The notes under the pieces are model-generated. The model saw only the letters and a program-made list of their open reading frames with translations, did not search any database and had not been told where the DNA came from. From Pseudoflavonifractor sp. Marseille-P3106 (GTDB lineage Bacteria > Bacillota > Clostridia > Oscillospirales > Oscillospiraceae), in the NCBI GenBank assembly GCA_900169975.1, contig LT827123.1, positions 62,001-126,000 of the forward strand: a stretch of 64,000 nucleotides of DNA, written 5' to 3'. A program made the translations under genes and the position numbers. Shown one piece after another: positions 1-18,769 of the stretch (within the stretch, counting starts at the first letter, position 1; every line of letters starts with the position of its first letter).

Positions 1-113
1 GAGTCCGGCGGCGAGCCGGTGGAATACATAGAGTGCTCCGGGGATCCGAATTCTCTGGACGCGGTCATCTTTCCGCGCCTGCGCGCCGCCATTGTGGACG
101 CCACCGCGCCCCA
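1..113 (+). pseudogene. 5' part of a split PRK06851-type P-loop ATPase gene (partial, left edge)
   Basis: Frame 1 is open from the window edge and reads ...YIECSGDPNSLDAV and then IVDATAPH. This is the end of the first half of the two-domain PRK06851 ATPase family, whose members carry an xDGTAPH motif in the middle. Family resemblance stops right after the His codon at 112-114. The frame then runs through the terminator hairpin of the neighbouring minus-strand operon to a stop at 292-294, giving an unrelated tail. The family sequence resumes at about 15453 with HVIEPKLPGAVESYVDLG. The gene is therefore interrupted, not simply ended. Function of the family is poorly known; the N-terminal Walker motifs lie outside the window. 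Confidence 0.8.
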
Positions 114-123
114 CGGCGGGGTA
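103..123 (+). other. candidate left attachment junction (attL) of the integrative element
   Basis: The target-gene reading (A T A P H) ends at CCCCA (109-113) and element sequence follows. The right junction has TCCCA at 15452-15456 followed by TGTCATAGAG, which restores P-H-V-I-E-P when the two outer flanks are joined. The shared core is only CCCA. A short core is normal for large serine recombinases. The exact crossover bases are inferred. Confidence 0.65.
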
Positions 124-155
124 AAAAAGTCCACACCCGCAGCGCGGGTGTGGAC
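120..155 (-). terminator. Rho-independent terminator of the NRPS operon
   Basis: Read on the minus strand, a 12-bp perfect stem (arms 144-155 and 129-140, 3-base loop) is followed by TTTTTT. It lies about 20 bases after the PPTase stop and just inside the left element boundary. Confidence 0.85.
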
Positions 156-175
156 AAGAGGCGGGGCAGTCCGGC

Positions 176-709
176 TCAGAGTCGGACCACAGATACCCTG
201 CCCACCGAAGCGGCACACAGGCACAGGCTGTATCCGTCCGGGCCGGAGATGTGCCGCAGCTGGGCGCCGCCCGGCAGAGGGGCCAGCACGTTGAACCAGT
301 CCAGTCCTTTCACCATGCCGTCTCCGGTGTATTTGAGATAACTCTCCTTGGCGGTCCAAAGGAAGAAGAAATCCGCCTCGCTCCCCCCGCGCTCTTCCAG
401 CCAGACGGCCTCCCCGGGATGAAAAAACCGCCGGGCGAGGGCCGCGGTCCGGCAGGGCTCCCAGCGCTGCAGGTCGAACCCCACGGGTGCATGTCCGAAG
501 GCGCAGGCCCAGTACCCCCCGCTGTGGGAGACGGAAAAGCAGACCTCCGGCGCCTGGGAAAAGCGGGGCTTTTTCCCCTCCTCCCGCACACAGGTCCACC
601 GGGAGGCATCCCGGCCCGTAAAGCGCGCCGCAGCCGTCCGCAGAAGGCTGTCCCGGGACAGGCCGTCTCCGTCCGGAGAGAGGAACACAGTGAAATCGTC
701 GCTGCTCAA
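176..709 (-). CDS. Sfp-type 4'-phosphopantetheinyl transferase
   Basis: It should transfer phosphopantetheine from CoA to the serine of the carrier domains in the NRPS and the free carrier protein of this operon. The 177-residue protein shows the Sfp-family landmarks: CFSVSHSGGYW near residue 58, VGFDLQ near 76 with the Mg-binding Asp, and FFFLWTAKESYLKYTGDGM near 115-135 with the W/K-E-x-x-x-K core. Start is TTG at 709, whose TTGA overlaps the stop of the carrier-protein gene, so translation is probably coupled. It is the last gene of the operon. A second, housekeeping-like PPTase is encoded at 46781-47281, so this copy looks dedicated to the element. Confidence 0.92.
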   Translation of the reverse strand: MSSDDFTVFLSPDGDGLSRDSLLRTAAARFTGRDASRWTCVREEGKKPRFSQAPEVCFSVSHSGGYWACAFGHAPVGFDLQRWEPCRTAALARRFFHPGEAVWLEERGGSEADFFFLWTAKESYLKYTGDGMVKGLDWFNVLAPLPGGAQLRHISGPDGYSLCLCAASVGRVSVVRL

Positions 710-936
710 GGGTGGTCGAAGCCCTTTTTTTCCAGGTAATCCAGAACGTCCTGGACCCGGCGGAGCTGCCAGATGTCCCGGGTGGAGACCGTGGTGTTGA
801 AGTGGGCTTCAAACGCCGCGACGATGTTGACCACATCAAAGGAGTTCAACTCCAGGTCCTGCGCGAAATCGGTATCTGGGGTGATCCCCTTTTTTCCCGT
901 CACTTCATAGATAATGTTTGCAATGAGCTCAAGCAC
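706..936 (-). CDS. free-standing acyl/peptidyl carrier protein
   Basis: This 76-residue acidic protein has the four-helix carrier-protein pattern with the phosphopantetheine attachment serine in DLELNSFDVV (about residue 32). It lies between the acyl-activating ligase (13-base gap) and the PPTase (4-base overlap). By known lipopeptide logic the ligase would load an acyl chain on this carrier and the starter condensation domain of the NRPS would take it as donor. The partner assignment is inferred from operon order. No catalytic function is expected from the protein itself. Confidence 0.88.
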   Translation of the reverse strand: MLELIANIIYEVTGKKGITPDTDFAQDLELNSFDVVNIVAAFEAHFNTTVSTRDIWQLRRVQDVLDYLEKKGFDHP

Positions 937-949
937 AGCAGATTTCCTC

Positions 950-2626: not shown

Positions 2627-2627
2627 A

Positions 2628-4088
2628 TTAAAAAACCTCCTCTGCGAAGAATCTGAGCTGTTCACCCGGTTCCATCTGCCGGATCTCCTCCGGCAGTTCC
2701 CGTATCACATTCAAAAAGACATCCACCATTTTGCCGTCCAACTGGGTGTCTTTGACCTCGACCAGCTTTTCCAGCGCCTGGTCAAAGGTCATACTGGGGC
2801 GGTAGCGCCGGGCGGAGGTCATTGCGTCAAAGGTGTCGGCAATGGAGATGATCCGAGACGCCTCCGGAATGTCCGTCCCGGACAGGCCGTCCGGATACCC
2901 CTTCCCGTCTATTCGCTCGTGATGGCTGCGTACGATGGGAGCGATCGTCCGGAAGGAGGAGATGGCGGAGAGAATAGAGCTTCCGCATTCCGGGTGCTTG
3001 CGGATCACCTCAAACTCCTCGTCCGTGAGTTTGTCCGGAGAGAGCAGGATATTGTCCGGAATCGCCATCTTGCCCACGTCGTGGAACAGCCCGGCCAGAC
3101 GGACCTGGCGGCAGGTCTCCGGGTCTTTTCCCAGCGCGGCGGCCAGATGTCCGGCATAATAGGACACGCGGTCCGAGTGGCCGCGGGTGTAGATGTCCTT
3201 GGCATCGACCATCAGCCGCAGCGCCTTGATGACCTCCACGTAGCTGTCCTTGACCCGCCGCAGCAGGAGCGTGTTTTCCATAGATGCGGCGCACTGCCGG
3301 ACAAAGATCCGAAACAGCTGCTCCTGATAGAAGTCGGGCTTTCCGGCCATCACAATGGCCAGGACCCCGATGGATTCGCCCAGGGAATTGGCCACGGGGG
3401 AGCAGAGCACCCGCTCCCGCCCGAATTGCTGTTCCACCTGCGTACAGAGCAGTTCCGGCGTTTCCGCATCCAGCCCGGCCATCGCATCACCGGAGGAGAA
3501 CCGTAGGTGGGGAGCGCCTCTCCCGCCGTCCCAAATGGCCAGCAGACCGTCGGTGCACGCCCACAGAGACTGTACCGCGGCGAGAATGTGACTGCCGATC
3601 TGATTCGGCTCCTGGAGCGCGTAAATCTCAGGCATAATGCTGGCCATGTCCGCAAGGCGCTGCTGATAACTGCGGATGAGCCGCATCTGCCGGATGGATT
3701 TGACGCAGGATTCCACCAGGAGCTCCAGCTGATCAAAGCGGTCGTTCTTCTCATAATAGCCCTGGATGTCCAGCGCGCGGATGGTTCGGATGGGAGGGGC
3801 CATGCTCTTGTGTCCGGTCAGCAGGATAATAAACAGATCGTGGTTGAAGGTTCGGATCTGTTCCACAACCTGATCGCCGCACAGCGGAGTCATGAGAAAA
3901 TCCAGCAGCAGGATGTCGTAGTGACAGGTCCGGACCCTCTCGATTGCGGCGACGGGGTCATTCTCCACATCCACCTGATATCCGGCGCCCTGGAAATAGG
4001 ACTGGATCGTGGCAGTCATGATCGGATCGTCATCCAACGCGAGAATCGAAAATTCGCTTTTTTCGGACCCATGCCTGTTCTTTCTCAT
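2628..4088 (-). CDS. response regulator with receiver, GAF-like and HD-GYP domains
   Basis: Residues ~12-130 are a receiver domain: LALDDDP acidic pocket, LLLDF phospho-acceptor Asp, LLTGHKS switch region. The middle (~150-270) resembles a GAF-type sensor. Residues ~290-460 are an HD-GYP domain with HSDRV, LFHDVGKMAIPD, RKHPECG, SHHERIDGKGYPDGL all intact, the pattern of active cyclic-di-GMP phosphodiesterases. There is no DNA-binding domain, so output is probably second-messenger turnover. It overlaps the kinase stop by ATGA with a GAGGAGG ribosome site, so the pair is co-translated. Its position inside a biosynthetic operon, after the NRPS, is unusual; the signal is unknown. Confidence 0.92.
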   Translation of the reverse strand: MRKNRHGSEKSEFSILALDDDPIMTATIQSYFQGAGYQVDVENDPVAAIERVRTCHYDILLLDFLMTPLCGDQVVEQIRTFNHDLFIILLTGHKSMAPPIRTIRALDIQGYYEKNDRFDQLELLVESCVKSIRQMRLIRSYQQRLADMASIMPEIYALQEPNQIGSHILAAVQSLWACTDGLLAIWDGGRGAPHLRFSSGDAMAGLDAETPELLCTQVEQQFGRERVLCSPVANSLGESIGVLAIVMAGKPDFYQEQLFRIFVRQCAASMENTLLLRRVKDSYVEVIKALRLMVDAKDIYTRGHSDRVSYYAGHLAAALGKDPETCRQVRLAGLFHDVGKMAIPDNILLSPDKLTDEEFEVIRKHPECGSSILSAISSFRTIAPIVRSHHERIDGKGYPDGLSGTDIPEASRIISIADTFDAMTSARRYRPSMTFDQALEKLVEVKDTQLDGKMVDVFLNVIRELPEEIRQMEPGEQLRFFAEEVF

Positions 4089-5974
4089 CCATGCACCTCC
4101 TCGTCATCAAAAAGTCTGGATACAGATACCGTCTCGATGGGGATGGAAAAACCAAAGATGGATCCACCGTCCGGGTTGTCCTCCATCCACATGGTGCCGC
4201 CGAACTTGCCCCGGACGACGGAGTTGGAAATATACAGTCCCAGGCCGGTCCCTTTGGTGCCCTTGGTGGTGATCATCTCCTGGAACAGCCGGCTTCGGGC
4301 CCTGGGATCCACGCCCCGTCCCGTGTCCTTCACGTATAGACTCATATGGGTCGCGCTCTCCCGGAAGCCCACAACGATCTCTTTCCGGGCGCAGTCACGC
4401 TCGGCGTCGATGGCATTGCTGACCAGGTTGTTCATGACCTGGATGAGGTTATTGATGTCTCCGTGCAGGGTCACACGCAGACGGGGGTCGTATTCTGTGC
4501 TCAGTTTACAGCCGCTGCTCTGAAGCTCGTGCCGCATCAGCAGCACCGTCCGCCTGATGAGTTCGTCCAAGGTGAATTCCCGCTCTTCCGAGGTGCTGAC
4601 ATTGGCGGCCTGGCCCTTGATGGCCGTGATGATGTCGGACATGTACGAACAGGAGGAACGGATCTTGCTCAGCCAGCCGTCCACCTCGCCGTAGATCTCA
4701 TTGTAGTCTTCCTCGGTGACCTCGGGATCTCCCAGAGAATCCCACGCCTCCTTCACCAGGGTCTCCACCGCGGTGGCGCAGCCGGCGATGCTCATGATGG
4801 GTGTTTTGAGGTTGTGGGCCAGACCGCCCACCATTTGTCCCAAAAGGGCCAGCCGCTCCTGCTCCATCATCCGGGCCTGCCCCTCCTGGACCTGCTGCAT
4901 GCTTCTTTTGATCTGCGTGATGTCCTTGAAGATGACCACGAATCCGGAGAGCTGCTGCTGGATCTCCAGGGGGGTAATGTCCACCATGTAATAGTACTTG
5001 CGGGGCGCTTCCTTTTCGCCTACGGGCATGGTGACCGCCTGCTCGTAGGCGATGGGGGTCCCGTTTTTTCCGCAGGACTGCACGGCGGAAATCAGGTTGT
5101 AGAGCGCGGTCTTGTTGGCGATATCCTCTGATTCCAGGCTCTTTTCGATCTGCCGGTTGCTGGTGATGCCGTACAGTTTTCCGAACACCTCCCGGAAGGG
5201 GCGGTTCTCGTCCACCACCAGTCCGTGTTCGTTCAGTACCAGGTATCCGTCCGGGATCCAGTCCAGGACATGCTGTGTGGCAATGGGAACGATGTCCAGA
5301 AGGTGCAGCCGGTAGATGGCGATATAATTGCAGATCAGGGTCGCGGTAAAGCTCAGAGGGGTGGCGGCGATGGAGAGGTCCCGATTGGAGAAGGTCGCCG
5401 CAACACTGACGAGCAGCGGGATTATCTCCCCCATCACCAGCATGGCCACCTGCATGCGATACAGCCGGCTGTTGCTGCGCATACCGAAGCGGATCAGCAC
5501 CACGGTGGCACAGATCAGGCAGAGATATGTGTAAAAACCGGACACATAGATGTAGGGGCCGAATACGATCTCGCTGCGGATGATGGAAAAGACCCGGTAC
5601 TGCAGGTGGTGTATGGGGTTGGTCCAGACCACCGCGTTTGTGATGACGGGGACGGCCAGCAGGCTCACCCAGCCCCGGGGCAGGGTCTCTTTCCCGTTGG
5701 CAAAGGCCACGGCGATCAGGAGCATGATGACGGGAGTGAAGGTGGCACCAAGATAGGAAAAAGCATCCCAGCGGAAAAGAGCCGCCGTGTTTCCCGGGTC
5801 TGTGTATCGCATCCCCAGCATTGCCACCGGCCAGGCGGAGAAGACCAGGCAGAGCGCCATATACAGCTTTTGGATCAGTTGCTGGCGCTTTTGGGTAAAC
5901 AGGCTGTACCCAATGAAGATAACGCACACCACGAGCAGACAGGTAAAGATGATCGCGGCATAGTCGGGGATCAC
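4085..5974 (-). CDS. membrane histidine kinase (7TM-PAS-HisKA-HATPase)
   Basis: A 629-residue sensor kinase. The first ~220 residues contain about seven hydrophobic segments of the 7TM histidine-kinase type. A PAS-like segment follows (LDWIPDGYLVLNEHGLVVDE near 235). The phospho-acceptor His is in GLAHNLKTPIMSIAGC (near 400), then NNLVSNAIDAER (N box) and DTGRGVDP / GTGLGLYISNSVV (G boxes). The stop overlaps the HD-GYP regulator start, identifying its partner. It begins 27 bases after the NRPS stop. Ligand is unknown; sensing of the operon's own peptide product is possible but only inferred. Confidence 0.93.
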   Translation of the reverse strand: MIPDYAAIIFTCLLVVCVIFIGYSLFTQKRQQLIQKLYMALCLVFSAWPVAMLGMRYTDPGNTAALFRWDAFSYLGATFTPVIMLLIAVAFANGKETLPRGWVSLLAVPVITNAVVWTNPIHHLQYRVFSIIRSEIVFGPYIYVSGFYTYLCLICATVVLIRFGMRSNSRLYRMQVAMLVMGEIIPLLVSVAATFSNRDLSIAATPLSFTATLICNYIAIYRLHLLDIVPIATQHVLDWIPDGYLVLNEHGLVVDENRPFREVFGKLYGITSNRQIEKSLESEDIANKTALYNLISAVQSCGKNGTPIAYEQAVTMPVGEKEAPRKYYYMVDITPLEIQQQLSGFVVIFKDITQIKRSMQQVQEGQARMMEQERLALLGQMVGGLAHNLKTPIMSIAGCATAVETLVKEAWDSLGDPEVTEEDYNEIYGEVDGWLSKIRSSCSYMSDIITAIKGQAANVSTSEEREFTLDELIRRTVLLMRHELQSSGCKLSTEYDPRLRVTLHGDINNLIQVMNNLVSNAIDAERDCARKEIVVGFRESATHMSLYVKDTGRGVDPRARSRLFQEMITTKGTKGTGLGLYISNSVVRGKFGGTMWMEDNPDGGSIFGFSIPIETVSVSRLFDDEEVHG

Positions 5975-6001
5975 AGACTCAACTCCTTTCCATACAGTTT
6001 C

Positions 6002-9000
6002 TCAGCCGTCCAGGCAGAACAGATCCAACGCGTGTCCCATGTCCTGATCGGGCCACGCAATGCCGGCCTGACGCAGCAGACAATGGGTCTTTTCACAGGA
6101 GACGGTCACATTTCCGGCCCCATGCTGCAGGCCGTTCCACAGATCGATCAGAGAGGCCAGCGTCTCAGCGTGTTCCGCCGAGGCCTGGGAAAGCCGCTGG
6201 GAGAAGGCGTCGTCGGAGAGAATTTCCAGATTGGGGAACCGGACGCCCAGCGTCCGGCCCAGGGGGGCAGGATCGGGCTGGATCACATGGAACGCAGTGC
6301 TGTCGGCCTGCTCCAGCGCCACGATGGACTCCGCACACAGATCCACGGGGGACAGTTCCAGTGGAAGGCCCGCCAGAGATTCCGGCAGGGCCTGCAGCAG
6401 CCTGACACCCTGCACGATCCGGTAAAAAGCGTTGGAATCGGGATTTTTCTGAAAGACACCGTCGGACCGGCGGCCGATGAGCCGCCCGATCCGGAAGATC
6501 CTGGCGCACAGTCCGGACTCCACCGCGCGGCAGATCTCCTGCTCCGCCAAAAATTTGCCGCGGATATACAGGTTGTCCCGCCAGTTTTGTCCGATGTCCA
6601 GATCTGCTTCGGTAAACAGACGGGGAACCGCAGGGTCCTCCCCCGCGAAGGAGCCGCTGATGCTGGCTGTGGAGATGTGGAACAGCGCAGCCCCGGCTGT
6701 CAGGGCAAAGGAGACGGCTTGACGGGCCCCCTCCAGATTTGTGGCGAGGAGCCGGTCGTCCGAAGCGTAGTGGCGCACGTCTCCGGCGGCGTGGTAGAGC
6801 GCATCCACCCGCTCTGCGAGAGCGGTATAGTCCTTCTGCGCCATTCCGAAGTCCGGCTGACACACGTCTCCCCGGCACACCTCCAGACGATTTTTCCGAA
6901 GGGTGGTCCAGCCGCTGCCGAAATACCAGGACAGCGTTTCCAGAAGCCGTCCGGCATCTCCGTCCCGGAGCAGACACACGATCTTTGGGCAGCCCCGGTC
7001 CAACAGTACCCGGAGCAGATGCGCACCCAGAAAGCCCGTTGCGCCGGTGAGCAGGACGGTGGAGAACGGTCCGTCTTTCCGCTGGCGGAGCGGAGGCACC
7101 TGCGTCGGCCGGAACACAGGCAGCTTCGTCCGGACGGGTGGGGGCTGGACCCGGGCCCCCAGCAGTGCGGCCTGGGCCCGGACCGTGGGGGCACGGTAAA
7201 AATCCGCCAGCGTCATGCTGATATGGCGGTTGTAGTATTCGCTCAAAATGCTCAGTGCCGAGAGGGAGGTCCCCCCCTGCTCGAATAGGGAGACATCCGC
7301 CCGCAGCGCGGGCTGCCGGAGCACTTGCTTCCAGATGTCCAGCAGGGTGTCCTCGGAGACGGGCGCGGCCGGGGGAGGCTCCTGCGCGGGTGTGGGAAGG
7401 GCTTTCAGTGCCGCTTCGCCATCCCCCTCTGCAAGAGCCCTGAGAGCCGGCATATCCAGTTTCCCGCTGGCGTTGTAAGGCATCCCGGACAGTGTCAGCA
7501 GACGTCCGGGGATCATGTAGGAGGGCAGGCGCAGGGCGAGGCTCTGCCGCAGGGCGGCAGGGTCCAGGGTCTCCGGCGTCACGATGGCGCAGAGGGAGGA
7601 GGAGCCGTCCGGATTTTTCAGGGGAATGGCAACCGCCTCATCCGCGCCGGCTTCCCGCAGGGCGTCCGTGATCTCGCCCAATTCCACACGATTCCCGTTG
7701 ATCTTCACTTGGGCGTCGGTCCGGCCCAGACACTCGATCCGCCCGTCCAGGCGCAGGCGGCCCACGTCACCGCTGCGGTACATCCGTTCCCCTTGGAAGA
7801 AGGGGTCGTCCAGAAACAGCTCCTGGGTCAGATCCGGTCTGCCCACATAGCCGTCGGCCAGGCCGGGGCCCGCCAGATACAGCTCTCCCAGCGCCGTGGG
7901 CAGGACCGGCTTGCGGTCCTGATCCAGCACGTAGATCCGGCAGTTGTTCAAGGGCGCACCAATGGTGACGGGCTCGCCCTCCCTCAGTTCGCCTGCCGTG
8001 ACGTAAACGGCGGTCTCGGTGGGACCGTACATATTCACGAGCCGACCGGAACAGTGGGCCTTGAACTGGGTGACCAGGCCGGGAGAGACCATTTCCCCTG
8101 CCACAATGGTGAAGGAAAGGCCTTCTGCCGCCTGGGAGAAGGCGGTGCTGCGCAGGCACATCTGAAGCCTGGAAGGAGTGAACTGGGCGATTCGGGGTTG
8201 GTGTGCCGTCATGAGCTCGGCCAGCTTCCAGGGCAGCAGCATCTCCTCCTCGTCAGCCATCACCACGGCGTAGCCCTGGGCCAGCGCCAGGAGCGTTTCA
8301 GTGATGAAGATGTCAAAGGTGGCGTTGGCGATGCACAGCACGGGGCCCTGCTCTCCCTCCATCCACTGCCGCAGGCTTTGCAGGCGGTCAGAGAGCGCCC
8401 GGTGAGGCATCTGGACCCCCTTGGGGCGTCCCGTCGAACCGGAGGTAAACAGGATATACATGGTCTGGCCTCCCTGGGGGCAGCAGGCGTGCTCCAGGGG
8501 CTGCGCGGACTCGTTCATGAGCACGACCGGCCGCACGCGGGCCTCTTGGGGCAGAACGGCGGCAGAGGCCTCGTCGCACAGGATGAGTTTTACGTCCGCG
8601 GTCCCCATCATGTAGGCAATGCGTTCCGCAGGGTAATCCGTGAGGAAGGGGACGTAGGCTCCGCCGATCTTGAGGATGGCCAGCATGGCGGCCAGCAGCT
8701 CCGGGCTGCGCCGGCAGGCGAGACCCACCCGGTCTCCGGAGGCTGCCCCATGTTCTGCCAAAACGCCCGCGATCTGGCAGGCCCGGGCCTCCAGCGCGGC
8801 AAAGGAGGTTTTCTGCCCGTGCCAGAGCACCGCGTCGGCATCCGGATGGAGGATGGCTTCCTCCTCAATGACACAGTGAATGGGCATCTCCAGATAGGGA
8901 TACACCATCCGCCAGGGTCGGTCGAAGCAGCGGAGCCGATCCGCCGGGGAGAGGGGATCCAGCGCCGAGAGGGCAGCTCCCTCCGGGGCATCGGCCAGCT

Positions 9001-12000
9001 GCCGGATGAGGGTTTCCAGACACCGGCCGTAGAAGGCCACCGTCTCCCCCTCCAGCACGCCGGCGGCGTATTCGAAGTAGAAGTGATACTGCCCGTTCTC
9101 TTTTGCGGCCTCGATGCTGAGATCCAGCTTGGAGGTGCCGGTGGGGACGGGGATGTAATCCAGGGAGAGCCCCCCCAGGCGGAAGGCACCGGTGTCCAGC
9201 GGGCGGACCTGGAACATCACCTGGTAGAGGGGATTGTGGGCGGTGGAGCGGGGCACGTCCAGCGCCTCCAAAATCTCCTCCAAAGGGCACCCGCCGTGAT
9301 CCAGCATCTCCATGACGCCGATGCGGACCTGCCGGAAATAGTCCTCTACGCCGCCCCTGGGGAGCAGGCGCAGGGGCAGGGTGGACATCAGCGGGCCGCA
9401 CACGTTTCGCAGTTCGGGCCGGGTCCGGCAGGAGACGGGAGCCCCCAGGACCAGGTCGTCCTGCCCGGCCAGCCGCCCGAACAAAATGCCAAGCGCACCC
9501 GCAAACAGCATATAGGGGGTCAGCTCGTACCGGGCGCAGAACCGGTCGGCCGCCTCGGTGGCGGCCTGAGAAAAGACCAGGGTCTCGGCGCCGCCCCGGA
9601 AGTCGAACACCTGAGGACGGGGCCGGTCGGGAGGCAGCTCCAGCAGGGTGGGCACGCCGGACAGCCGCTCCTTCCAGTAGGCCAGATCGGCCCGGTGTTC
9701 GGCCCCGTCCGAACGGGCGCAGTACCACGCATAGTCCCGGCAGGACAGGTGGGGTGCGGGCTTCCCGCCGCAGAAGAAGGTGTTCAGACGCTCCATCAGA
9801 AGGGGGGTGCTGAGCCCGTCGCTGATGATATGGTGGATGTTCACCAGCAGCAGCCAGCGCCCCGAAGGCTCCTTCCACAGCGCCGCCCGCAGCAGGGGGG
9901 CGGCGGAGAGGTCGAAGGGGCGCAGAAGCTGGGAGAAGGCCTCCTCCCGGCTGTCCGCCGTGAGGACAGGGAGCTGGAACGCCGCCGTCTCATCCACCAA
10001 AGCGGCGAGATCCCCCTCCAGGGGGAGGAAGCGGGTCCGAAAGAGCGGATCGTCGGCAATGAGCGCCTGGAAAGCCTGCTCCAGACGGGGAATATCCGGC
10101 TCCCCGGACAGGGCAAAGGCACAGGGCATCTGATACGCCCGCCCGCTTTCATCCAGGCAGGATTGCAGATAGAGGCTCTTCTGCGTGGCCGTGAGGGGAT
10201 CTCCCGCGCACATCGGTGCGGCGGGAATCGGTTCCTCCCTCGGCTCTCCTGTTTCCCCGCCCAAAAACTCGTCCAGCCCCTTGGCCGTGCGGCAGGCGTA
10301 GAGATCGGAGATCATCAGGCGGACGCCGAAACGCTCCTCGATCCGGCTGATGGTCTCCATGGCGTTGAGGGAGTTCCCGCCGCACAGGAAGTAGTTGCTG
10401 TCGGCGTAGAGCTCGCCGGTGTTCAGCACCTGCCGGAAGATCTCCAGGATCTCCTCCTGGCGCTGTCCTGCGGGCTGCAGGTGGGCCTCTTCGTTCAAAG
10501 AGGGTTCAGGCAGCAGACGCTCGTTGACCTTGCCGTTGGGCGTCAGGGGGATCGCATCCAGCCGGAGGATCCGCGCCGGGATCATGTAGTGGGGCAGATA
10601 GGCCGCCGTATAGGTGAGCAGTTCCATCTCGGAAAGCGGGCGGGAGGAGACATAGTAGCCCACCAGAATCATCTGCCCGTTCTGCTCCAGAGCCCGGGCG
10701 GCGGCGTCTGTCACCTCGGGGTGGCGGCTGAGGCAGGCGGCGATCTCCTGAGGCTCCACCCGCAGGCCCCGCAGCTTGATCTGCCGGTCCCGGCGGCCCG
10801 CCAGTTCCAGTTCTCCATCGGCCGTCCAGCAGGCGATGTCCCCCGTTTTATAGAGGACCTCCCCGCATTCAAAGGGGCTGGGCAGGAACCGCTGGGCGGT
10901 GAGCTCAGGGTCGCCCCGGTAACCGCGGCCCACGCAGACGCCCCCGACATACAGCTCCCCGTAAATTCGAGTGGGGAGGGGCTGGAGATCATCGTCCAGC
11001 ACATAGAGATGGCAGTTCTCCATGGGCCGGCCGATGGTGATGCGCTCGGCCCGGTCGAGCCGGCAGAGGCTTACCGCCACCGTGGTCTCTGAGGGGCCGT
11101 ACTGATTGTAGATATGTGCGCCGGTATAGCCCCGCAGGCGGTGCAGCAGCTCGCTGGGAAAGGCCTCGCCTCCGCAGATGATGCTCTCCAGACGGCGCAG
11201 GGCCAGTGCAAAGCCCGTGTCGCTCAGGAGGGCGGAGAGCCGGGAGGGCGTGGTGGAGAGGAACCCAACGCCGTAATCGTGGATCAGCCGGGCCAGCTCC
11301 GCGGGGTTTTCCTGCTGCCGGGGGTTGGTCAGCAGCACCGTGCGCCCGCACAGCAGCGCGATGGCGCTCTCCAGCAAAAACGCGTCAAAGCCGATGCTGC
11401 ACAGAGAGAGCACCGCGCCGCTGCGGTAGATCGGCTGCATGGCCATGGCCAGGTTGACCACGCTTTTCTGGGTGATCTCCACGCCCTTGGGCGCGCCGGT
11501 GCTCCCGGAGGTATAGACCACGTAGGCCAGATCGTCCGGGCGGCCTCTCCGGGCCTGGGTACAGGCGTCGGGCAGGGCATCCATATTCACGATCCGGAGC
11601 CCCGGGACCGAAATGGGGGCGGAGAGGTCCGGGACGGACAACAGACAGCTCGCCCCGCTCTGGGCCAGAATGCTTTGCAGGCGGGAGACCGGCTGGTCCG
11701 GGGAGAGCAGGAGCCAGGCGCAGTTTGCCTGCATAATGCCTACCAGCGCGGCAAAGAGACGGGGGTCCCTGGGCAGCAGGACGGCCGCCAATTCCCCTTC
11801 CTCGGGGAGGGCCGCCGCCACGTGCCGGCCCATCTCCCGCAGCTGCCGGTAGGTGGTGCGCACCCCCTCGTGGATGACGGCCACCCGCCGGGGATTCTGG
11901 AGCGCGACCTCCTCAAACATCTCGTAGGGGGTGCGGGCGCTGCGCATGGCATAGGACTGGTTGAAGCGGTAGAGCACACACTCCCGCTCCTCGCCGCTCA

Positions 12001-13309
12001 GGATGGGGAGCGAGCGGATGGGGGTGTCCGGGGACTGGAGCCCGGCGCGCAGAATGTGGCAGAGATACTGGTGGAGCTCGTCGATCTCCCGCTCGGAGAA
12101 CAGCTGGGTGAGATAGTCGTAATCCACCGAGTAGATGCGGTTGTCCTCCAGGTTGGTCAGGTGGATACACAGCTGCTCCACCTGGAACCCGCTGTAATAC
12201 CAGAGCCCGGAGATCTGCACGGTGGCGTCCGGATTGACCAGGATCTGGCTGTTTTGATAGGACAGCATGATGCGGAAGAGAGGTCCGCCGCCGCCTGCCA
12301 GTTCCTCCATCTCGGCGAAGGGGAACCGCTGATGGCGCAGCATCTCCAGCCAGTTTTCCGTCAGGCGGTCGCTGAAGGTGCGGAAACTCCAGGTGTCGGA
12401 GACCTCGTTGACAAAGGGCAGGGTGCTCACAAACATGCCGGTAGTCTGCTTGTAGACGAAATTGGTGCGGTTAAAGACGGGGACGCCGATGGTGAATCGG
12501 TCCCCCCCGCCGGAGCGTTTGAGGTAGGTGGCCAAAGCCATGTAAAAGACAGAAAAGGGCGTGACGCGGTGCTGCTGGCAGAAGGAGTAGATGGCGTGAT
12601 TGAGCTGCTGGGGGAGGCGGTAGCTCTTTCGCCGCCCCACCTGGCTCACCGCGCTTTTAAAGCTCTTGACCGAAGCGGTTTCTCCCTCCCTGCCCAGGAC
12701 GCGGCTCCAGTAGTCCCGGTCGTCCCGGTAGGTTTTGGAGTCCAAATAGCGCGCCTCGTCCTCCACATAGGCGGCATAGTCGGGGAACTCCTCCCACTCG
12801 GGCGCCTTGCCGCCCAGAAGGCCCAGGTAGGCCTCTCCGATCCGGTTGCACAGCATGATCTGGGACCAGCCGTCGGAGATGATGTGGTGGGTCTCCACCA
12901 GCAGGCAGGCGGAGCGCTCTCCCATCCGGCACAGGACGAACCGGTACAGCGGCGCGTCCGGGGCGAAGATGGGGATCTGAGTATAGGCTGTGGCCCAGTG
13001 GCCGAAGCTCTCTTCATTGACGCAGGCAAAGTCCAAAAGAGGGACCGCGTCCCCGGACACGGGGGCGTGGTACTGCATGGGAACACCGTCCCGCACTGTG
13101 ATCCGGGTGCGCAGGGAGGGGTCCAGATCGACCACCGTACGAAGGGCTTTCTCCAGCAGAGACAGATCCACTCTGCCCGAGATGCGGATGGTGGCGCTGA
13201 TGTTGTTGATGGAAGTTCCCCCCACTGACTGCTCCAGCGCCCAGATGTTTTTCTGATTGAGGGAAAGAGGGAAGACTTCGTATTCCTTTTTCTTCATATG
13301 TTCCGCCAT
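6002..13309 (-). CDS. two-module NRPS with starter condensation domain and terminal thioester reductase (C-A-T-C-A-T-R)
   Basis: About 2435 residues. C1 (~1-440) has HHIISDGW near 141. A1 (~460-930) has YTSGSTGAPKG near 600 and NQYGPSETT. T1 has CGGNSLNAM near 977. C2 (~1030-1460) has HHIISDG near 1160. A2 (~1480-1960) has FTSGSTGRPKG near 1625 and NMYGPTETA. T2 has GGTSLSAL near 2013. R (~2080-2435) starts with the NAD(P)-binding GATGFLGAH and has a YxxxK pair (YIRGK). All catalytic motifs look intact. A first condensation domain accepts an acyl donor, and R releases the peptide as an aldehyde. By eye the pocket codes are roughly DALSIGQVAK and DITSIAMVYK; I do not assign residues from them. 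Start ATG 13309 follows GAGGT; ATG 13297 is an alternative. Confidence 0.95.
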   Translation of the reverse strand: MAEHMKKKEYEVFPLSLNQKNIWALEQSVGGTSINNISATIRISGRVDLSLLEKALRTVVDLDPSLRTRITVRDGVPMQYHAPVSGDAVPLLDFACVNEESFGHWATAYTQIPIFAPDAPLYRFVLCRMGERSACLLVETHHIISDGWSQIMLCNRIGEAYLGLLGGKAPEWEEFPDYAAYVEDEARYLDSKTYRDDRDYWSRVLGREGETASVKSFKSAVSQVGRRKSYRLPQQLNHAIYSFCQQHRVTPFSVFYMALATYLKRSGGGDRFTIGVPVFNRTNFVYKQTTGMFVSTLPFVNEVSDTWSFRTFSDRLTENWLEMLRHQRFPFAEMEELAGGGGPLFRIMLSYQNSQILVNPDATVQISGLWYYSGFQVEQLCIHLTNLEDNRIYSVDYDYLTQLFSEREIDELHQYLCHILRAGLQSPDTPIRSLPILSGEERECVLYRFNQSYAMRSARTPYEMFEEVALQNPRRVAVIHEGVRTTYRQLREMGRHVAAALPEEGELAAVLLPRDPRLFAALVGIMQANCAWLLLSPDQPVSRLQSILAQSGASCLLSVPDLSAPISVPGLRIVNMDALPDACTQARRGRPDDLAYVVYTSGSTGAPKGVEITQKSVVNLAMAMQPIYRSGAVLSLCSIGFDAFLLESAIALLCGRTVLLTNPRQQENPAELARLIHDYGVGFLSTTPSRLSALLSDTGFALALRRLESIICGGEAFPSELLHRLRGYTGAHIYNQYGPSETTVAVSLCRLDRAERITIGRPMENCHLYVLDDDLQPLPTRIYGELYVGGVCVGRGYRGDPELTAQRFLPSPFECGEVLYKTGDIACWTADGELELAGRRDRQIKLRGLRVEPQEIAACLSRHPEVTDAAARALEQNGQMILVGYYVSSRPLSEMELLTYTAAYLPHYMIPARILRLDAIPLTPNGKVNERLLPEPSLNEEAHLQPAGQRQEEILEIFRQVLNTGELYADSNYFLCGGNSLNAMETISRIEERFGVRLMISDLYACRTAKGLDEFLGGETGEPREEPIPAAPMCAGDPLTATQKSLYLQSCLDESGRAYQMPCAFALSGEPDIPRLEQAFQALIADDPLFRTRFLPLEGDLAALVDETAAFQLPVLTADSREEAFSQLLRPFDLSAAPLLRAALWKEPSGRWLLLVNIHHIISDGLSTPLLMERLNTFFCGGKPAPHLSCRDYAWYCARSDGAEHRADLAYWKERLSGVPTLLELPPDRPRPQVFDFRGGAETLVFSQAATEAADRFCARYELTPYMLFAGALGILFGRLAGQDDLVLGAPVSCRTRPELRNVCGPLMSTLPLRLLPRGGVEDYFRQVRIGVMEMLDHGGCPLEEILEALDVPRSTAHNPLYQVMFQVRPLDTGAFRLGGLSLDYIPVPTGTSKLDLSIEAAKENGQYHFYFEYAAGVLEGETVAFYGRCLETLIRQLADAPEGAALSALDPLSPADRLRCFDRPWRMVYPYLEMPIHCVIEEEAILHPDADAVLWHGQKTSFAALEARACQIAGVLAEHGAASGDRVGLACRRSPELLAAMLAILKIGGAYVPFLTDYPAERIAYMMGTADVKLILCDEASAAVLPQEARVRPVVLMNESAQPLEHACCPQGGQTMYILFTSGSTGRPKGVQMPHRALSDRLQSLRQWMEGEQGPVLCIANATFDIFITETLLALAQGYAVVMADEEEMLLPWKLAELMTAHQPRIAQFTPSRLQMCLRSTAFSQAAEGLSFTIVAGEMVSPGLVTQFKAHCSGRLVNMYGPTETAVYVTAGELREGEPVTIGAPLNNCRIYVLDQDRKPVLPTALGELYLAGPGLADGYVGRPDLTQELFLDDPFFQGERMYRSGDVGRLRLDGRIECLGRTDAQVKINGNRVELGEITDALREAGADEAVAIPLKNPDGSSSLCAIVTPETLDPAALRQSLALRLPSYMIPGRLLTLSGMPYNASGKLDMPALRALAEGDGEAALKALPTPAQEPPPAAPVSEDTLLDIWKQVLRQPALRADVSLFEQGGTSLSALSILSEYYNRHISMTLADFYRAPTVRAQAALLGARVQPPPVRTKLPVFRPTQVPPLRQRKDGPFSTVLLTGATGFLGAHLLRVLLDRGCPKIVCLLRDGDAGRLLETLSWYFGSGWTTLRKNRLEVCRGDVCQPDFGMAQKDYTALAERVDALYHAAGDVRHYASDDRLLATNLEGARQAVSFALTAGAALFHISTASISGSFAGEDPAVPRLFTEADLDIGQNWRDNLYIRGKFLAEQEICRAVESGLCARIFRIGRLIGRRSDGVFQKNPDSNAFYRIVQGVRLLQALPESLAGLPLELSPVDLCAESIVALEQADSTAFHVIQPDPAPLGRTLGVRFPNLEILSDDAFSQRLSQASAEHAETLASLIDLWNGLQHGAGNVTVSCEKTHCLLRQAGIAWPDQDMGHALDLFCLDG

Positions 13310-13377
13310 AGACCTCACGCACCTCTGTGCCTCTGTTCCATATTTGCCCCGGATTTTTGTAAACTCAATGCTTTTTA

Positions 13378-13406
13378 AATATATCAAAGTTCGACAGAGA
13401 ACACAA
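13378..13406 (-). promoter_or_regulatory. probable SigA promoter of the NRPS operon
   Basis: On the minus strand TTGTGT (13401-13406), a 17-base spacer and TATATT (13378-13383) precede the NRPS start by about 70 bases. The stretch 13310-13539 between the two divergent transcription units holds no other gene. Confidence 0.45.
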
Positions 13407-13505
13407 GCACAAAGCTCGGTTTCTTGCCGTTTCTGGACAATTATTTCTGATTTTGCGGGCCCCCGGACGCAGGACGGACCGCCTGCTTTTCATATGACGG
13501 CGGTG

Positions 13506-13530
13506 CCCCTGCATATCCATCAGGCAGGGG
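13506..13530 (+). promoter_or_regulatory. hairpin covering the ribosome site of the small ORF
   Basis: CCCCTGC (13506-13512) pairs with GCAGGGG (13524-13530); the second arm contains most of the AGGGGGG ribosome site of the ORF at 13540. Translation could be dampened when the hairpin forms. Confidence 0.5.
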
Positions 13531-13539
13531 GGATCGCAT

Positions 13540-13662
13540 ATGAAACGCAAGCCCACGCAGTTTGTGGTGAAGGAGACGTTTCGCTCCGCGGATGTGCAGG
13601 CGAGAAAGGCGGCGATCAGCCGTATCGTAAAGCGGTATCTGGAGATCCGGCTGTGTCCGTAG
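13540..13662 (+). CDS. 40-residue basic protein upstream of the serine recombinase
   Basis: ATG 13540 follows AGGGGGG with a 7-base spacing. The product begins MKRKPTQFVVKETF and ends EIRLCP; it is basic and helical-looking (KAAISRIVKRYLEIR). It lies 38 bases before the recombinase start on the same strand. Small ORFs directly upstream of serine recombinases occur in many Firmicute elements, and a role as directionality or accessory factor is possible but is inference from position only. The gene is too short for reliable family assignment. Confidence 0.6.
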   Translation: MKRKPTQFVVKETFRSADVQARKAAISRIVKRYLEIRLCP

Positions 13663-13700
13663 ATCAAGCGGACCGGCGCCAAAATGAGGGGGGAGAGTCC

Positions 13701-15263
13701 GTGCTGTGTGCGATCTACTGCCGCCTGAGCAAAGAGGACGAAGACAAACAGCAGCCGGAATCCGAGAGCATTCAAAATCAGAAATCCATGCTGGTGAAGT
13801 ATGCGGTGGAGCGGGGCTGGGACATTTACAATCTGTACTGTGACGAGGATTTTTCCGGCGCGGACGCCCACCGGCCCGACTTCAGCCGGATGCTCCGGGA
13901 CGCAGAGGCCGGAAGGTTTCAGATCATCCTCTGCAAGAGCCAGTCCCGCTTTACCCGGGATATGGAGCTGGTGGAGAAGTACATTCACGGCAGGTTTCCC
14001 CAGTGGGGGATCCGCTTTGTCGCCCTTGCGGACCATGTGGACACCGACGTAAAAGGCAGCAAAAAAGCCCGCCAGATCAATGGGCTGATCAACGAGTGGT
14101 ACCTGGAGGACCTGTCGGAGAACATCCGCATGGTGTTCGACTTCAAGCGCCGGCAGGGACAGTATATCGGCGGCTTCCCCCTCTACGGGTATCGGAAGGA
14201 TCCTGCGGATAAAAACAAACTGGTGGTGGACGAGACGGCGGCGCCCGTGGTGCGTCAGATCTACCGCTGGTCTTTGGAGGGCTGCGGGGCCCAGCGTATT
14301 GCGGCGCTGCTGAACCGGCGGGGCATCGACAATCCCACCCGGCACAAGCAGAAACTTGGTATGAATTATGTCAATGGAAGTGGAGCGGGCGGTGGGTGCT
14401 GGAACAAGACCGCCGTGTCCCGGATCCTGCACAATGAGATGTATGCCGGCGTCATGGTGCAGGGGCGGAAAAAGAAGGTCAGCTACAAATCCAAACGCAC
14501 CGCGGATGTGCCGGAGGAGCAGTGGTACCGGGTGCCCGGCACCCATGAGGCCATCATAGATCCGGAGACTTTTCGGCAGGTGCAGGAGCTGCTCCGCCCG
14601 CGAAGGAAGGCCGACGGACGGGGGGAAGTCCATGTGCTGGCAGGATTGGTGAAGTGCGCGGAGTGCGGTTCCACCATGGCCCGGACATCCAACGGCCAGC
14701 CGGGCGAGAAGCGGGTGAGCTATCTGCGGTGCAGCCGGTCGGCGGCGGGCGGCGGGAGAGCGCTGTGCTCCCGGCACTCCGTCCGGCTGGATGATCTGGT
14801 CGAGCTGGTGTCGGAGCGGCTGCGGACGCACCTTGCGGGATGCTGGGAGCCGGGCGATCTTCAGCGGTTCTCCCCGCGGGAGCAGGCGGCCGACCGGGTG
14901 ACTGCGCTGCAAAAAGACCTGCGAACGCTGGAAGGGCAGATCGAAGCCCGCGCAGCCGCGCTGAAGACCCTCTACCTGGACCGGGTGTCCGGGCTCCTGG
15001 GAGAAGAGGAGTTTTGCTCCATGAACCGGGAGTTCCAGAAGGAGAGAGCGCATATGATCCGGCACAGAGAGGAACTGCGGCGGGAAGTGGAGCGCGTGAA
15101 CGGGGCGGAGGACGGCGGCGGAGCGGCAGAGCGCGTCCGGGAGCTCCTGCGGTTGGACCCTGTTCCCCGGGAACTGTTCGTCCTGGCGGTGGAGAAGGTC
15201 GAGGTGGGGGAAAAAGACCCTGAGACAGGGCGGCAGGAGGTGCGGATCCACTGGAAGTTTTAA
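13701..15263 (+). CDS. large serine recombinase (integrase) of the element
   Basis: A 520-residue site-specific recombinase. The N-terminal resolvase domain (~1-150) starts IYCRLSKED with the nucleophilic Ser near residue 10 and has the SQSRFTRD segment. A recombinase domain (~165-290) has GGFPLYGYRKD. A zinc-ribbon (~310-360) has CAECGSTM and later paired Cys (RCSRSA, LCSRH). A coiled-coil C-terminus (~390-480) is rich in Glu/Arg/Leu. Start is GTG 13701, five bases after AGGGGGGAG; the open frame extends further upstream but without coding character. It ends ~190 bases before the right junction. It should catalyse integration and, with a directionality factor, excision of this element. Confidence 0.92.
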   Translation: MLCAIYCRLSKEDEDKQQPESESIQNQKSMLVKYAVERGWDIYNLYCDEDFSGADAHRPDFSRMLRDAEAGRFQIILCKSQSRFTRDMELVEKYIHGRFPQWGIRFVALADHVDTDVKGSKKARQINGLINEWYLEDLSENIRMVFDFKRRQGQYIGGFPLYGYRKDPADKNKLVVDETAAPVVRQIYRWSLEGCGAQRIAALLNRRGIDNPTRHKQKLGMNYVNGSGAGGGCWNKTAVSRILHNEMYAGVMVQGRKKKVSYKSKRTADVPEEQWYRVPGTHEAIIDPETFRQVQELLRPRRKADGRGEVHVLAGLVKCAECGSTMARTSNGQPGEKRVSYLRCSRSAAGGGRALCSRHSVRLDDLVELVSERLRTHLAGCWEPGDLQRFSPREQAADRVTALQKDLRTLEGQIEARAAALKTLYLDRVSGLLGEEEFCSMNREFQKERAHMIRHREELRREVERVNGAEDGGGAAERVRELLRLDPVPRELFVLAVEKVEVGEKDPETGRQEVRIHWKF

Positions 15264-15439
15264 GGCGGCACCGCACAAAGACGGCGGCGCGTTGTTAAAA
15301 TTTCCGCCATGACCTTGTTGCGAAAACTTGAAATCCACCAAGGATTCCTGTGTTTGCGCGCCTGGTTCCGACGCAAAATTTTGAAGCAAATCGCTCTTGC
15401 CCCATGATGCGGTCTTGCCTTAAAAAGGAGCGCGTGGAC

Positions 15440-16255
15440 TTGGAAACCCTCTCCCATGTCATAGAGCCCAAACTGCCCGGAGCGGTGGAGAGCTACGTGG
15501 ATCTGGGGCGGTTCTATGATCGGGAGGGCCTGGAACCGCTGCGGGAGGAGCTGTCCGCAGCCATGGACGGCTACAAGGGACACTACAAACGGGCCTATCG
15601 CTGTCTGACGGCGGCGGCCCAGCTGGCGGAGGACAGCCGCGCGCTGCTTTTGACGCCCGCGCTGGAGGCAAAAGCCCTGAAACGGGCCCGCGGCATTTTA
15701 GGGCGGGAAATCAAAAAGACAGGCCGTCAGTCGGGGCGGGCTGTCCAGCGCTTCCTCAGCGGCATCACCTGTCAGGGGGCGATCTGCCGTTTTGATACGG
15801 CGGACACGTTGTGCCGCAGAGTCTATGAGCTCTCGGACTCCTGGGGGCTGGGCTCCGGGATGCTGACGGCTTTGGCGTCCGGAGCCATGTCGGCGGGTTA
15901 CGACGTCATCCTCTGCCCGTCCCCGCTTTTTCCCGAGCGGGCGGAGCATCTGCTGATCCCGGAGCAGTCCCTGGCGTTTCTCACCAGCACGCCCGCGCTG
16001 TCCTATCCGGGTCGGCCCTATCGCCGCATCCGGCTGGACGCCATGGCAGACGAAGAACTGCTGCGCAAATACAAGGCCCGGCTGAAATTTTCCAGGAAGG
16101 TCCAGGCGGCGCTTTTGGAGGAAGGTGTGGAGGCGCTGGCCCAGGCAAAGGCTGTCCACGACCGGCTGGAGGCGCTTTACAATCCCCACGTGGACTTCGA
16201 TGGAGTCTACCGACAGGCCGACGAGCTTTCCCGGGCGCTGCTGGCTTTGACATAA
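15440..16255 (+). pseudogene. 3' part of the split PRK06851-type ATPase gene, with element-supplied start
   Basis: From HVIEPKLPGAVESYVDLG onward the protein matches the second half of the PRK06851 family, including WGLGSGMLTALASGAMSAGYDVILCP, LIPEQSLAFLTS and the C-terminal KAVHDRLEALYNPHVDFD. The N-terminal half is 15.3 kb away at the left window edge. The frame is intact to its stop, and element sequence supplies AAGGAG (15425-15430) with GTG 15434 or TTG 15440 behind it, so the C-terminal half may still be translated. Without the first ATPase half its function is probably lost. The stretch 15264-15439 contains no gene. Confidence 0.8.
15446..15466 (+). other. candidate right attachment junction (attR)
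   Basis: Element sequence ends at CTCTCCCA (core CCCA 15453-15456), and target gene resumes with TGTCATAGAGCCC. Codon phase matches the left half exactly. Confidence 0.65.
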
Positions 16256-17698: not shown

Positions 17699-18769
17699 TT
17701 GAACAAGAAACAGCTGGGGGGCGTTGGACCGGTGCGGGCTGCGGCGGCGGCGCTGGCGGCGGCCCTGGTGCTGGCGTCGGGAGGACAGGACGCGCTGGCC
17801 GCGGAGGAAGCGCCGGTGAGCGCCCCGGCGTCGGTTCGGACCCTGGTCCCGGTGGGCCGGGCGGTGGGGATCAAACTTTTTTCAGACGGCGTGATGGTGG
17901 TGGGATTTTCACAGATCCCGGCGGCGGGGGGAACTGAGACGCCTGCCCGGACGTGCGGGCTGAAAGAGGGGGACATCATCACACACATCAACAGCGCCGA
18001 AGTGGACACCATCGAAGAGGTGCAGAGCCAGCTGGCCCGGATCGGCGGCGAGGAGATGAGCATCCGGGCGCTCCGGGACGGCCGGGAGGTTCAGGTCACC
18101 GCTCAGGCGGTGCAGTGTGTCTCCGACGGATCGTACAAGCTGGGAGCCTGGCTGAGAGACTCCATGGCCGGGATCGGCACCATCACCTATTATGACCCGG
18201 AGACCGGGGCCTTTGGAGCTCTGGGCCACGGAGTCAACGACGTGGATACCGCACAGCTGATGCCACTGGAGACAGGCGGAGTTCTGAAGGCCACGGTCAC
18301 TGACGTGAAAAAAGGGAAGCGGGGCGAGCCGGGGGAACTCCACGGCACCTTTGAGCTTTCCAAGGATGTGGGCGAGCTGACGGCCAATACCGCGCAGGGG
18401 ATTTTCGGTTCCCTGTCCGACGGCAGTTTGGCCGCGGGCCTGGAGCCGGTGGAAGTGGCGAGCCGGGATCAGGTAAAGACCGGGAAAGCCGCCATTTACT
18501 CCAACATTTCGGGGGATGACGTAAAGTCCTATGAGGTGGAAATCACAAAGATCTTTCCGGCGGGCGGAGATGGCCGGGATCTGATGATCAAAGTGACCGA
18601 TCCCACCCTGCTGGAGGCCACCGGAGGCATTGTGCAGGGAATGTCCGGAAGCCCTATTGTCCAGGACGGCCGTCTGGTGGGGGCCGTCACCCATGTGCTG
18701 GTGGGAGACCCCACACAGGGTTATGGAATCCTGGCGGAAAGAATGCTCAGCACAGCTAAAAACTTCTAA
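17699..18769 (+). CDS. spoIVB: SpoIVB serine peptidase (sporulation sigma-K checkpoint)
   Basis: SpoIVB is secreted from the forespore and signals through the SpoIVFA/SpoIVFB complex to release active sigma-K. This 356-residue protein has an N-terminal hydrophobic segment (~10-35), a PDZ domain (~75-150, CGLKEGDIITHINSAEV) and an S55-type peptidase domain with GALGHGVND (catalytic His) and GMSGSPIVQDG (catalytic Ser). Start is TTG 17699 after GGGGGTGG. A small hairpin lies at 17656-17670 in the leader, and CATATTA at 17643 resembles a sigma-G -10 but lacks a clear -35. The neighbour downstream is spo0A, the conserved Firmicute arrangement. Confidence 0.95.
   Translation: MNKKQLGGVGPVRAAAAALAAALVLASGGQDALAAEEAPVSAPASVRTLVPVGRAVGIKLFSDGVMVVGFSQIPAAGGTETPARTCGLKEGDIITHINSAEVDTIEEVQSQLARIGGEEMSIRALRDGREVQVTAQAVQCVSDGSYKLGAWLRDSMAGIGTITYYDPETGAFGALGHGVNDVDTAQLMPLETGGVLKATVTDVKKGKRGEPGELHGTFELSKDVGELTANTAQGIFGSLSDGSLAAGLEPVEVASRDQVKTGKAAIYSNISGDDVKSYEVEITKIFPAGGDGRDLMIKVTDPTLLEATGGIVQGMSGSPIVQDGRLVGAVTHVLVGDPTQGYGILAERMLSTAKNF

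Follow-up and report, generated by a model that had tools for sequence, protein, structure and literature searches.

A clade of serine recombinases in a dual-wield NTPase gene of gut Oscillospiraceae: a probable skin-like family of intervening elements with variable cargo

We found that a gene of the PRK06851 family, the dual-wield NTPase (dwNTPase) family (PMC10949312), is split at its codon His93 by 15.34 kb of inserted DNA in Pseudoflavonifractor sp. Marseille-P3106. The split lies in a 64,000-nucleotide stretch of contig LT827123.1 (positions 62,001 to 126,000; hereafter the window), whose genome is labelled G000; other genomes carry G labels and individual loci L labels. The insert contains a nonribosomal peptide synthetase (NRPS) operon and a large serine recombinase, and comparison across genomes makes it almost certain that the clade of this recombinase inserts site-specifically into the dwNTPase gene. 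The elements likely form a horizontally moving, skin-like family that interrupts a sporulation gene and would be excised in the mother cell. Elements in this gene are not described in the open-access literature that we searched, a search to which subscription papers and preprints were external.

The left half of the gene, which starts upstream of the window (L002:3836), occupies window positions 1-113 on the plus strand and translates into 93 codons, MESKVSFF...IVDATAPH. The right half restarts on the same strand at 15455, the first base of the His93 codon, and runs from HVIEPKLPG onward to 16255 (266 codons). Joined in silico at their common CA, the halves give a single frame of 358 codons plus stop, so that precise removal of the element restores the intact gene. 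The joined gene scores 683 bits against a profile of nine intact relatives, compared with 178 and 491 bits for the left and right halves; the right half by itself matches NCBIfam PRK06851.1-6 from profile position 91 with 107 bits, under the model cut-off of 556. Among 16 genomes of the genus, 15 including G000 have the gene, and in all 14 others it is an open frame of at least 363 amino acids; the unbroken junction was read directly in 10 of these 14, the search patterns having missed the other four. The initial annotation, which had described a split on one strand and in one phase and had proposed a look for empty sites in relatives, is thus borne out on both points, and two unrelated halves are ruled out by the join, the profile scores and the whole gene in relatives. 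Its site sequence, CCCCATGTCATAGAG, describes the site after joining; in the window itself, the left end has CAC.

The element ends point to a common mode of insertion. The left junction (attL, 112-134, no strand) consists of the CA core at 112-113 within the His93 codon, followed by the element end with an arm GTCCAC at 129-134, 15 nucleotides from the core. The right junction (attR, 15434-15456, no strand) has the arm GTGGAC at 15434-15439, then 15 nucleotides and the CA core at 15455-15456. Across the split genomes, all 22 right halves have CAT or CAC as His codon, and two of 23 left ends read CAG, so that the left third base is apparently element-derived and the crossover apparently at CA. 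A GGACAC arm (5 or 6 of 6 letters, offset 16 or 15) was recognised in 14 of the 23 left ends and in 14 of the 22 right ends, compared with shuffle means of 1.5 and 1.3 and maxima of 7 and 5. The symmetric G000 arms are a weaker variant with 4 of the 6 letters, and the left one overlaps a hairpin read by eye at 129-155, so that the G000 copy alone would be weak evidence for arms. The ends of G086 and G296 form the palindrome GGAACAGCGGCA/TGCCGCTGTTCC around the core. Relatives offer the empty attB, and the arms of attP are symmetric.

The same codon is hit in many other genomes. A dwNTPase match is present in 250 of 400 genomes of the family and a double match in 39, among which 23 are split at the His93 codon, three have the halves in swapped order and 13 are second copies, contig ends, frame breaks or splits at other sites. 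All 23 left halves (91-95 codons) and all 22 fetched right halves (241-269 codons) are open; the 23rd right half, of G319, was without a stop in the split survey. In the three swapped cases (G058:C28, G145:C2 and G118:C9) the halves lie on the same strand, right half first and 7-30 kb apart, and look as if a circle-borne intact copy had been integrated via this site. Seventeen elements are complete on one contig, with sizes of 1.7-17.9 kb. A related recombinase accompanies 22 of the 23 same-codon splits, and none was found in the fetched pieces of G196. Long forms of the recombinase are 57-62% identical to that of G000 and short forms 56-58% over about 300 residues. The short form (about 300-340 amino acids, lacking the C-terminal region) occurs at the same codon in L049 (G031, whose insert is only 1.7 kb), L048, L093 and L099 (g72).

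A survey by recombinase in the public genome collection, limited to the 80 best of 560 relatives, gave the same picture. At 33 of 38 loci with at least 55% identity to the G000 enzyme, the recombinase ends within 400 bp of a dwNTPase half whose boundary is His93, whereas this adjacency was seen at four of eight loci at 48-54% and at three of 34 below 48%. Of the five misses in the upper class, L131, L143 and L150 have the half beyond 400 bp, while at L153 and L160 none turned up. Both halves were seen in Flavonifractor sp. An10 (L136), whose element measures 10.2 kb, and one half each in Flintibacter muris DSM 110149, Colidextribacter sp. OB.20 and Marasmitruncus massiliensis, in the first two beside or near the recombinase. 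The recombinase flanks in Anaerotruncus colihominis, Faecalibacterium longum, Marseille-P2935 and Alkaliphilus, examined by eye, showed no clear split gene. Around three other recombinases of G000, five neighbours searched in Pfam gave only TrbL_2 and DUF6198, and three were without a match. The search that had been proposed for the same recombinase beside other cargo in the same gene thus succeeded, with the same clade at the same codon in other genomes. Relatives devoid of the NRPS, which had been named as a possible refutation should they be split here too, do exist in other genera; their splits carry other elements of the same family, and this strengthens the reading as an element, as do the empty sites in relatives.

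These elements also move. The recombinases of G316 and G365, two different genera, are 96% identical, and between G219 and G298 the synonymous divergence (dS) of the recombinase is 0.03 compared with 0.29 and 0.35 for the dwNTPase gene, both of which indicate recent transfer. Cargo varies from element to element, according to Pfam searches of chosen open reading frames (ORFs) rather than of every ORF: an RtcB ligase (G226), CCA-adding-type and RlaP proteins (G377, G359), a glycyl-radical enzyme with a radical SAM protein (G041), a DctM transporter with a sigma-54 activator (G088), redoxin/DsbD and M20 peptidase proteins (G301), an EcoEI-type restriction helicase (G375), a FAD oxidoreductase and a sodium:sulfate-type symporter (G267), a TPR protein (G365), tyrosine integrases (G316, G359) and transposases (G316, G377). 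No phage structural match was obtained in this annotated subset of cargo ORFs. The NRPS occurs only in the G000 element; tblastn gave no hit to it in any of the 16 further complete elements, nor in the pieces fetched for six others, which rules it out as a general cargo of the family.

The target points to sporulation. In Clostridioides difficile the family member CD3298 is listed in the regulon of the mother-cell factor sigE (PMC3789822), and its loss is reported to yield heat-sensitive spores without calcium dipicolinate (PMC10449524, PMC5509370). The interrupted residue His93 is invariant in our alignment of nine intact relatives and would be equivalent to His92, a conserved and putative active-site histidine in the Bacillus protein, to judge by its place after Cys67, Asp75 and Asp88 (PMC10949312). 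Upstream of the dwNTPase gene, AC-N17-CATA stands at -42 to -44 in nine of nine intact genus copies examined (of 14), a sigK-like promoter form; the scan pattern is permissive in C-rich DNA, and the constant position is the stronger point. Such a sigK-like site, a point of difference from the sigE-controlled CD3298, would put excision ahead of expression of the gene.

The recombinase is preceded by what may be a developmental control module. In G000, a short ORF of 40 amino acids (13540-13662, plus strand) from a conserved family lies upstream of the recombinase gene (13701-15263, plus strand; 520 amino acids, GTG start), and 20 bp ahead of it stands a sigE-type promoter-like site, TCATAT...CATA (ATA-N17-CATA; 13490-13519, plus strand). 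The published sigE promoter form in spoIIID is ATA, a spacer of 16 and CATAnnnT. A profile built from 15 such short ORFs of 37-43 residues (the G146 peptide trimmed from 47 to 42 residues, the G347 start picked by eye) matched at 32 of 42 dwNTPase-type loci compared with four of 37 other recombinases, where L153 and L160, counted among the 37 though probably of the dwNTPase type, supply two of the four matches. In G377 and G319 the match came from a scan of the whole element and does not lie directly before the recombinase. Ahead of the short ORF, 11 of the 18 operons scanned have the sigE-type motif (shuffle mean 0.66, maximum 3), a set that includes G086 and G296 even though the script took a long ORF there, four of 22 operons having given none. 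It was also present at 32 of 42 dwNTPase-type loci (shuffle mean 3.5, maximum 7), namely those of 43, L131, L143 and L150 included and L153 and L160 left out, that had enough upstream DNA. Several of these loci are contigs of G genomes, and the operon and survey counts of motif and short ORF are therefore not independent. Before cargo ORFs the motif was found in nine of 160 cases. By analogy with C. difficile skin, where the 72-amino-acid, sigE-controlled CD1234 is described as the factor permitting excision (PMC5025042), the short ORF is a candidate recombination directionality factor.

We propose the following course of events. The recombinase would join attP of a circle to attB of the gene through the CA core and the symmetric arms, a step whose insertion is backed by comparison and whose enzymology is that expected of the family. 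During growth the gene would stay split and the cargo, in G000 the NRPS operon with its own 4'-phosphopantetheinyl transferase (PPTase) and two-component system, would be carried along. At sporulation, sigE in the mother cell would turn on the operon of short ORF and recombinase, and the short protein, acting as directionality factor, would direct the precise excision of the element. The rejoined gene with its sigK-like promoter site could then be expressed in time to aid the loading of the spore with calcium dipicolinate, and the forespore would retain the element, so that the germ line keeps it. Sporulation-linked excision of this kind, which promoter-like site, short ORF, target and selection together suggest, is in our view probable. 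The site-specific serine-integrase element and the split conserved gene of the initial annotation stand; what it missed is that elements of this kind form a widespread family, in which a sigE-type promoter-like site and a candidate directionality factor occur, that the target family includes a mother-cell sporulation gene in C. difficile, and that excision of the skin type is biologically more likely than simple disruption of the gene.

The most serious competitor of skin-like excision is a plain integrative cassette that inactivates the gene, leaves rarely and independently of sporulation, and sits in hosts that scarcely need the spore gene. Within a genus the insertions occur patchily, and they pass from one genus to another; many may thus be of recent date, and a recent insertion leaves intact-looking halves even without selection. 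Furthermore, dwNTPase was undetected in 150 of 400 family genomes, the spoIVA gene of G000 is split too, and CD3298 is reported to be dispensable for colonisation of mice by C. difficile. This explanation is, however, hard to align with the sigE-type promoter-like site before the recombinase operon at most loci, with halves that are open wherever they were read, and with the pair G103 and G226, whose elements have the recombinase (dS 0.37) and three families of cargo in common, presumably by descent, and whose gene halves (dS 0.06 and 0.30) show ratios of non-synonymous to synonymous divergence (dN/dS) of only 0.24 and 0.14. We therefore regard it as rather unlikely. A product assembled from separately expressed halves, which would form a working NTPase and make excision superfluous, could draw on in-frame start codons for the right half upstream within the element (GTG at 15350) and on the two-fold symmetry of the published dwNTPase fold (PMC10949312); since the break falls at an invariant residue matching the putative active-site histidine, and right ends within the elements differ among genomes, it is very unlikely. 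The G000 assembly has 20 contigs and 3% contamination, which might suggest an assembly or binning artefact or a degenerate remnant. The probability of this is negligible, because the split lies within a 274-kb contig, recurs in the one-contig G377, the two-contig G301 and Flavonifractor sp. An10 (L136), and comes with an open recombinase and open halves; an assembly error as such is ruled out by the same split across many assemblies.

Several observations weigh against sporulation-linked excision. It is a reading of sequence throughout, and a CD3298-like role of the G000 gene is assumed from family membership. The motif and the short ORF are each missing at ten of the 42 dwNTPase-type loci, the G000 promoter-like site has the core and lacks the final T of the CATAnnnT -10 element, and the motif contrast with other recombinases (11 of 34; shuffle mean 6.9, maximum 14) suffers from control DNA that is more AT-rich and from single-letter shuffles. 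In four short-recombinase elements examined (G031, G086, G217 and G296) no clear short-ORF match was obtained, while the Faecalibacterium recombinases L173 and L190, which are not beside dwNTPase, do have one (E values 0.0013 and 6.7e-8); the module may also serve other targets. Selection speaks less clearly elsewhere: right-half dN/dS is higher in G267/G365 (0.56) and G375/G348 (0.40), and in g22, where pairs of intact genes have 0.155-0.300, mixed pairs of an intact and a split gene 0.248-0.403 and the two split genes 0.323, split genes lie if anything slightly above intact ones. The divergence of the G000 gene, 0.352 compared with 0.337-0.382 in eight intact genomes (two outgroups), is ordinary, which would also follow from a recent insertion; this control used 16 intact genes, the pattern having failed on 14 of the 30, and only G059 and G212 as outgroups. 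In g72 the recombinases are near synonymous saturation (0.75-0.84 differing), while the dN/dS of left halves is 0.12-0.20.

The sporulation genes of the hosts add further counterpoints. As a marker of sporulation, spoIVA was found in 22 of 25 split genomes. The 33 others include 28 that have it, made up of 14 of the 15 whose dwNTPase is intact and 14 of the 18 in which no dwNTPase was matched; being about as frequent in non-split genomes, spoIVA provides no contrast for carriers. Many carriers of spore genes are without a detectable dwNTPase, and only one of three genomes in g72, the genus with the most diverged recombinases, has spoIVA. In G000, spoIVA is itself split at about residues 144-150, with the left part at C20:236830-237279, the right part 252 kb away at C20:489488-490534 and a 644-amino-acid serine recombinase directly before the right part. 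This organism could perhaps sporulate only if both genes were rejoined; it has either stopped sporulating or excises two elements. The 252-kb insert (G000:C20:237279-489488; L209, L220-L231, L210) has 51% G+C, and ten scanned ORFs gave a weak match to large terminase and matches to DNA ligase, anaerobic ribonucleotide reductase (NrdD) and helicase; it is apparently a very large (jumbo) prophage. In G316 (C13:23881-70213) and G103 (C2:19628-50310), both of which also have a split dwNTPase, spoIVA is likewise in two pieces, with a break at about residue 402 and weak serine recombinase matches in the fetched flanks.

We set aside sigK as a broken host trait, given uninterrupted sigK-type matches in G000; none of 30 genomes reached the curated sigK cut-off, so that these matches may belong to sigK or to its relatives. 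In G092, G145, G301, G377, G194, G173 and others, sigK-type matches, all below the cut-off, occur in two pieces 11-39 kb apart with two different break points, near residues 66 and 112, a pattern that two kinds of skin element would produce.

The genes recognised between the G000 halves fall on both strands. On the minus strand lie an AusB-like PPTase (176-709; E 1.1e-16, 61 bits, under the curated cut-off of 225), an AMP-dependent acyl ligase (PF00501; 950-2665), which presumably supplies the acyl starter, a response regulator with an HD (HD_5) output domain (2628-4088), a sensor histidine kinase with a 7TM N-terminal region (HisKA_7TM; 4085-5974) and the NRPS (6002-13387; 2461 amino acids), in which two condensation, two adenylation and two carrier domains are followed by a terminal NAD-binding reductase domain. 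A 76-amino-acid ORF at 706-936 carries no annotation. The short ORF and the recombinase complete the plus strand, the latter with the full domain set of large serine integrases (Resolvase, Recombinase and the zinc ribbon Zn_ribbon_recom) and a weak match to the CcrB profile (112 bits, cut-off 900). No phage structural or conjugation genes were found among the G000 element proteins scanned, and a prophage or an integrative and conjugative element was set aside on these grounds; in a comparison with viral contigs, the best full-length relative reached 42% and one partial match (245 residues) 55%. Downstream of the right half, on the plus strand, follow intact spoIVB (17699-18769; TIGR02860) and spo0A (18915-19673; TIGR02875), both above cut-off. 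An IS1182-family transposase lies at 20171-21445, downstream of spo0A.

Gut clostridial reductase-NRPS clusters of the ruminopeptin type make N-acyl dipeptide aldehydes. The G000 pathway, which combines two C-A-T modules and a NAD-dependent reductase with the acyl ligase, the kinase, the HD response regulator and the AusB-like PPTase, may accordingly be predicted from its domains to yield an N-acylated dipeptide aldehyde. The inferred completeness of this pathway, PPTase and sensor system included, is supported by the domains present and by a five-gene unit that recurs elsewhere in the same order, acyl ligase homologue included, in G244, G282 and G265 with NRPS homologues 49-51% identical; no recombinase match above 70 bits was found within the fetched 20 kb there. 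Such gut clusters are a known class (PMC12327764, PMC8518294), with which G000 has two modules, terminal reductase, acyl ligase and PPTase in common; in contrast to them, its pathway is the cargo of a site-specific element.

The closest parallel is skin, in which a serine recombinase element splits the mother-cell gene sigK of C. difficile (with CD1231 and CD1234) and of Bacillus subtilis. By their structure, with a frame restored on precise removal, an internal serine recombinase and att-like ends, the present elements fit the class of sporulation-gene intervening elements; in the role of the gene, in regulation and in excision they would fit it if the model is right. The small sigE-controlled directionality factor of C. 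difficile would have its counterpart in our candidate short ORF, yet the present target is dwNTPase instead of sigK, the cargo varies by element, excision is here a proposal, and a single sigE-type site precedes both the short ORF and the recombinase, in contrast to the constitutively expressed CD1231 (PMC5025042). Like the gin element in gerE of Bacillus cereus, these elements are non-phage, use serine recombination and occupy a probable sporulation gene; unlike gin, with its 28.6 kb and three recombinases, they have one recombinase plus the short ORF, reside in another gene and are spread over many genera (PMC5595907). The integrated elements SPbeta in spsM and yin in yabG also split sporulation genes, but these are described as prophage or prophage-like, while the annotated cargo ORFs of the dwNTPase elements have no phage structural match. 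Staphylococcal cassette chromosome (SCC) elements are cassettes with serine recombinases (Ccr) and variable cargo in one gene. The present elements resemble them in all three respects and in the weak CcrB match, and differ in a CcrB score far under the cut-off, in their target and in having a single recombinase.

If skin-like excision holds true, programmed excision at sporulation would grow from a few described cases to a common family of mobile cassettes, with a new target gene, a relative of which has a known spore phenotype, and with a very small proposed directionality factor. With excision wired to sigE, as we propose, an insertion would be costless during growth and undone only in the doomed mother cell. 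On balance, we lean towards a still broader view of these genomes, in which a dedicated recombinase clade has turned a spore calcium-dipicolinate gene into a 'harmless' landing site where cargo of any kind can settle, throughout the gut Oscillospiraceae, by means of a sigE-wired directionality factor of about 40 residues; NRPS, RNA repair and glycyl-radical cargo could then pass between genera as developmentally neutral passengers, and G000 would rejoin both dwNTPase and spoIVA for each spore. Cultured carriers such as Flavonifractor sp. An10, Flintibacter muris DSM 110149 and Colidextribacter sp. OB.20 make this model testable, and the pair of recombinase and short protein is a potentially useful tool. 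The family may thereby also represent one route by which natural-product pathways spread among gut bacteria.

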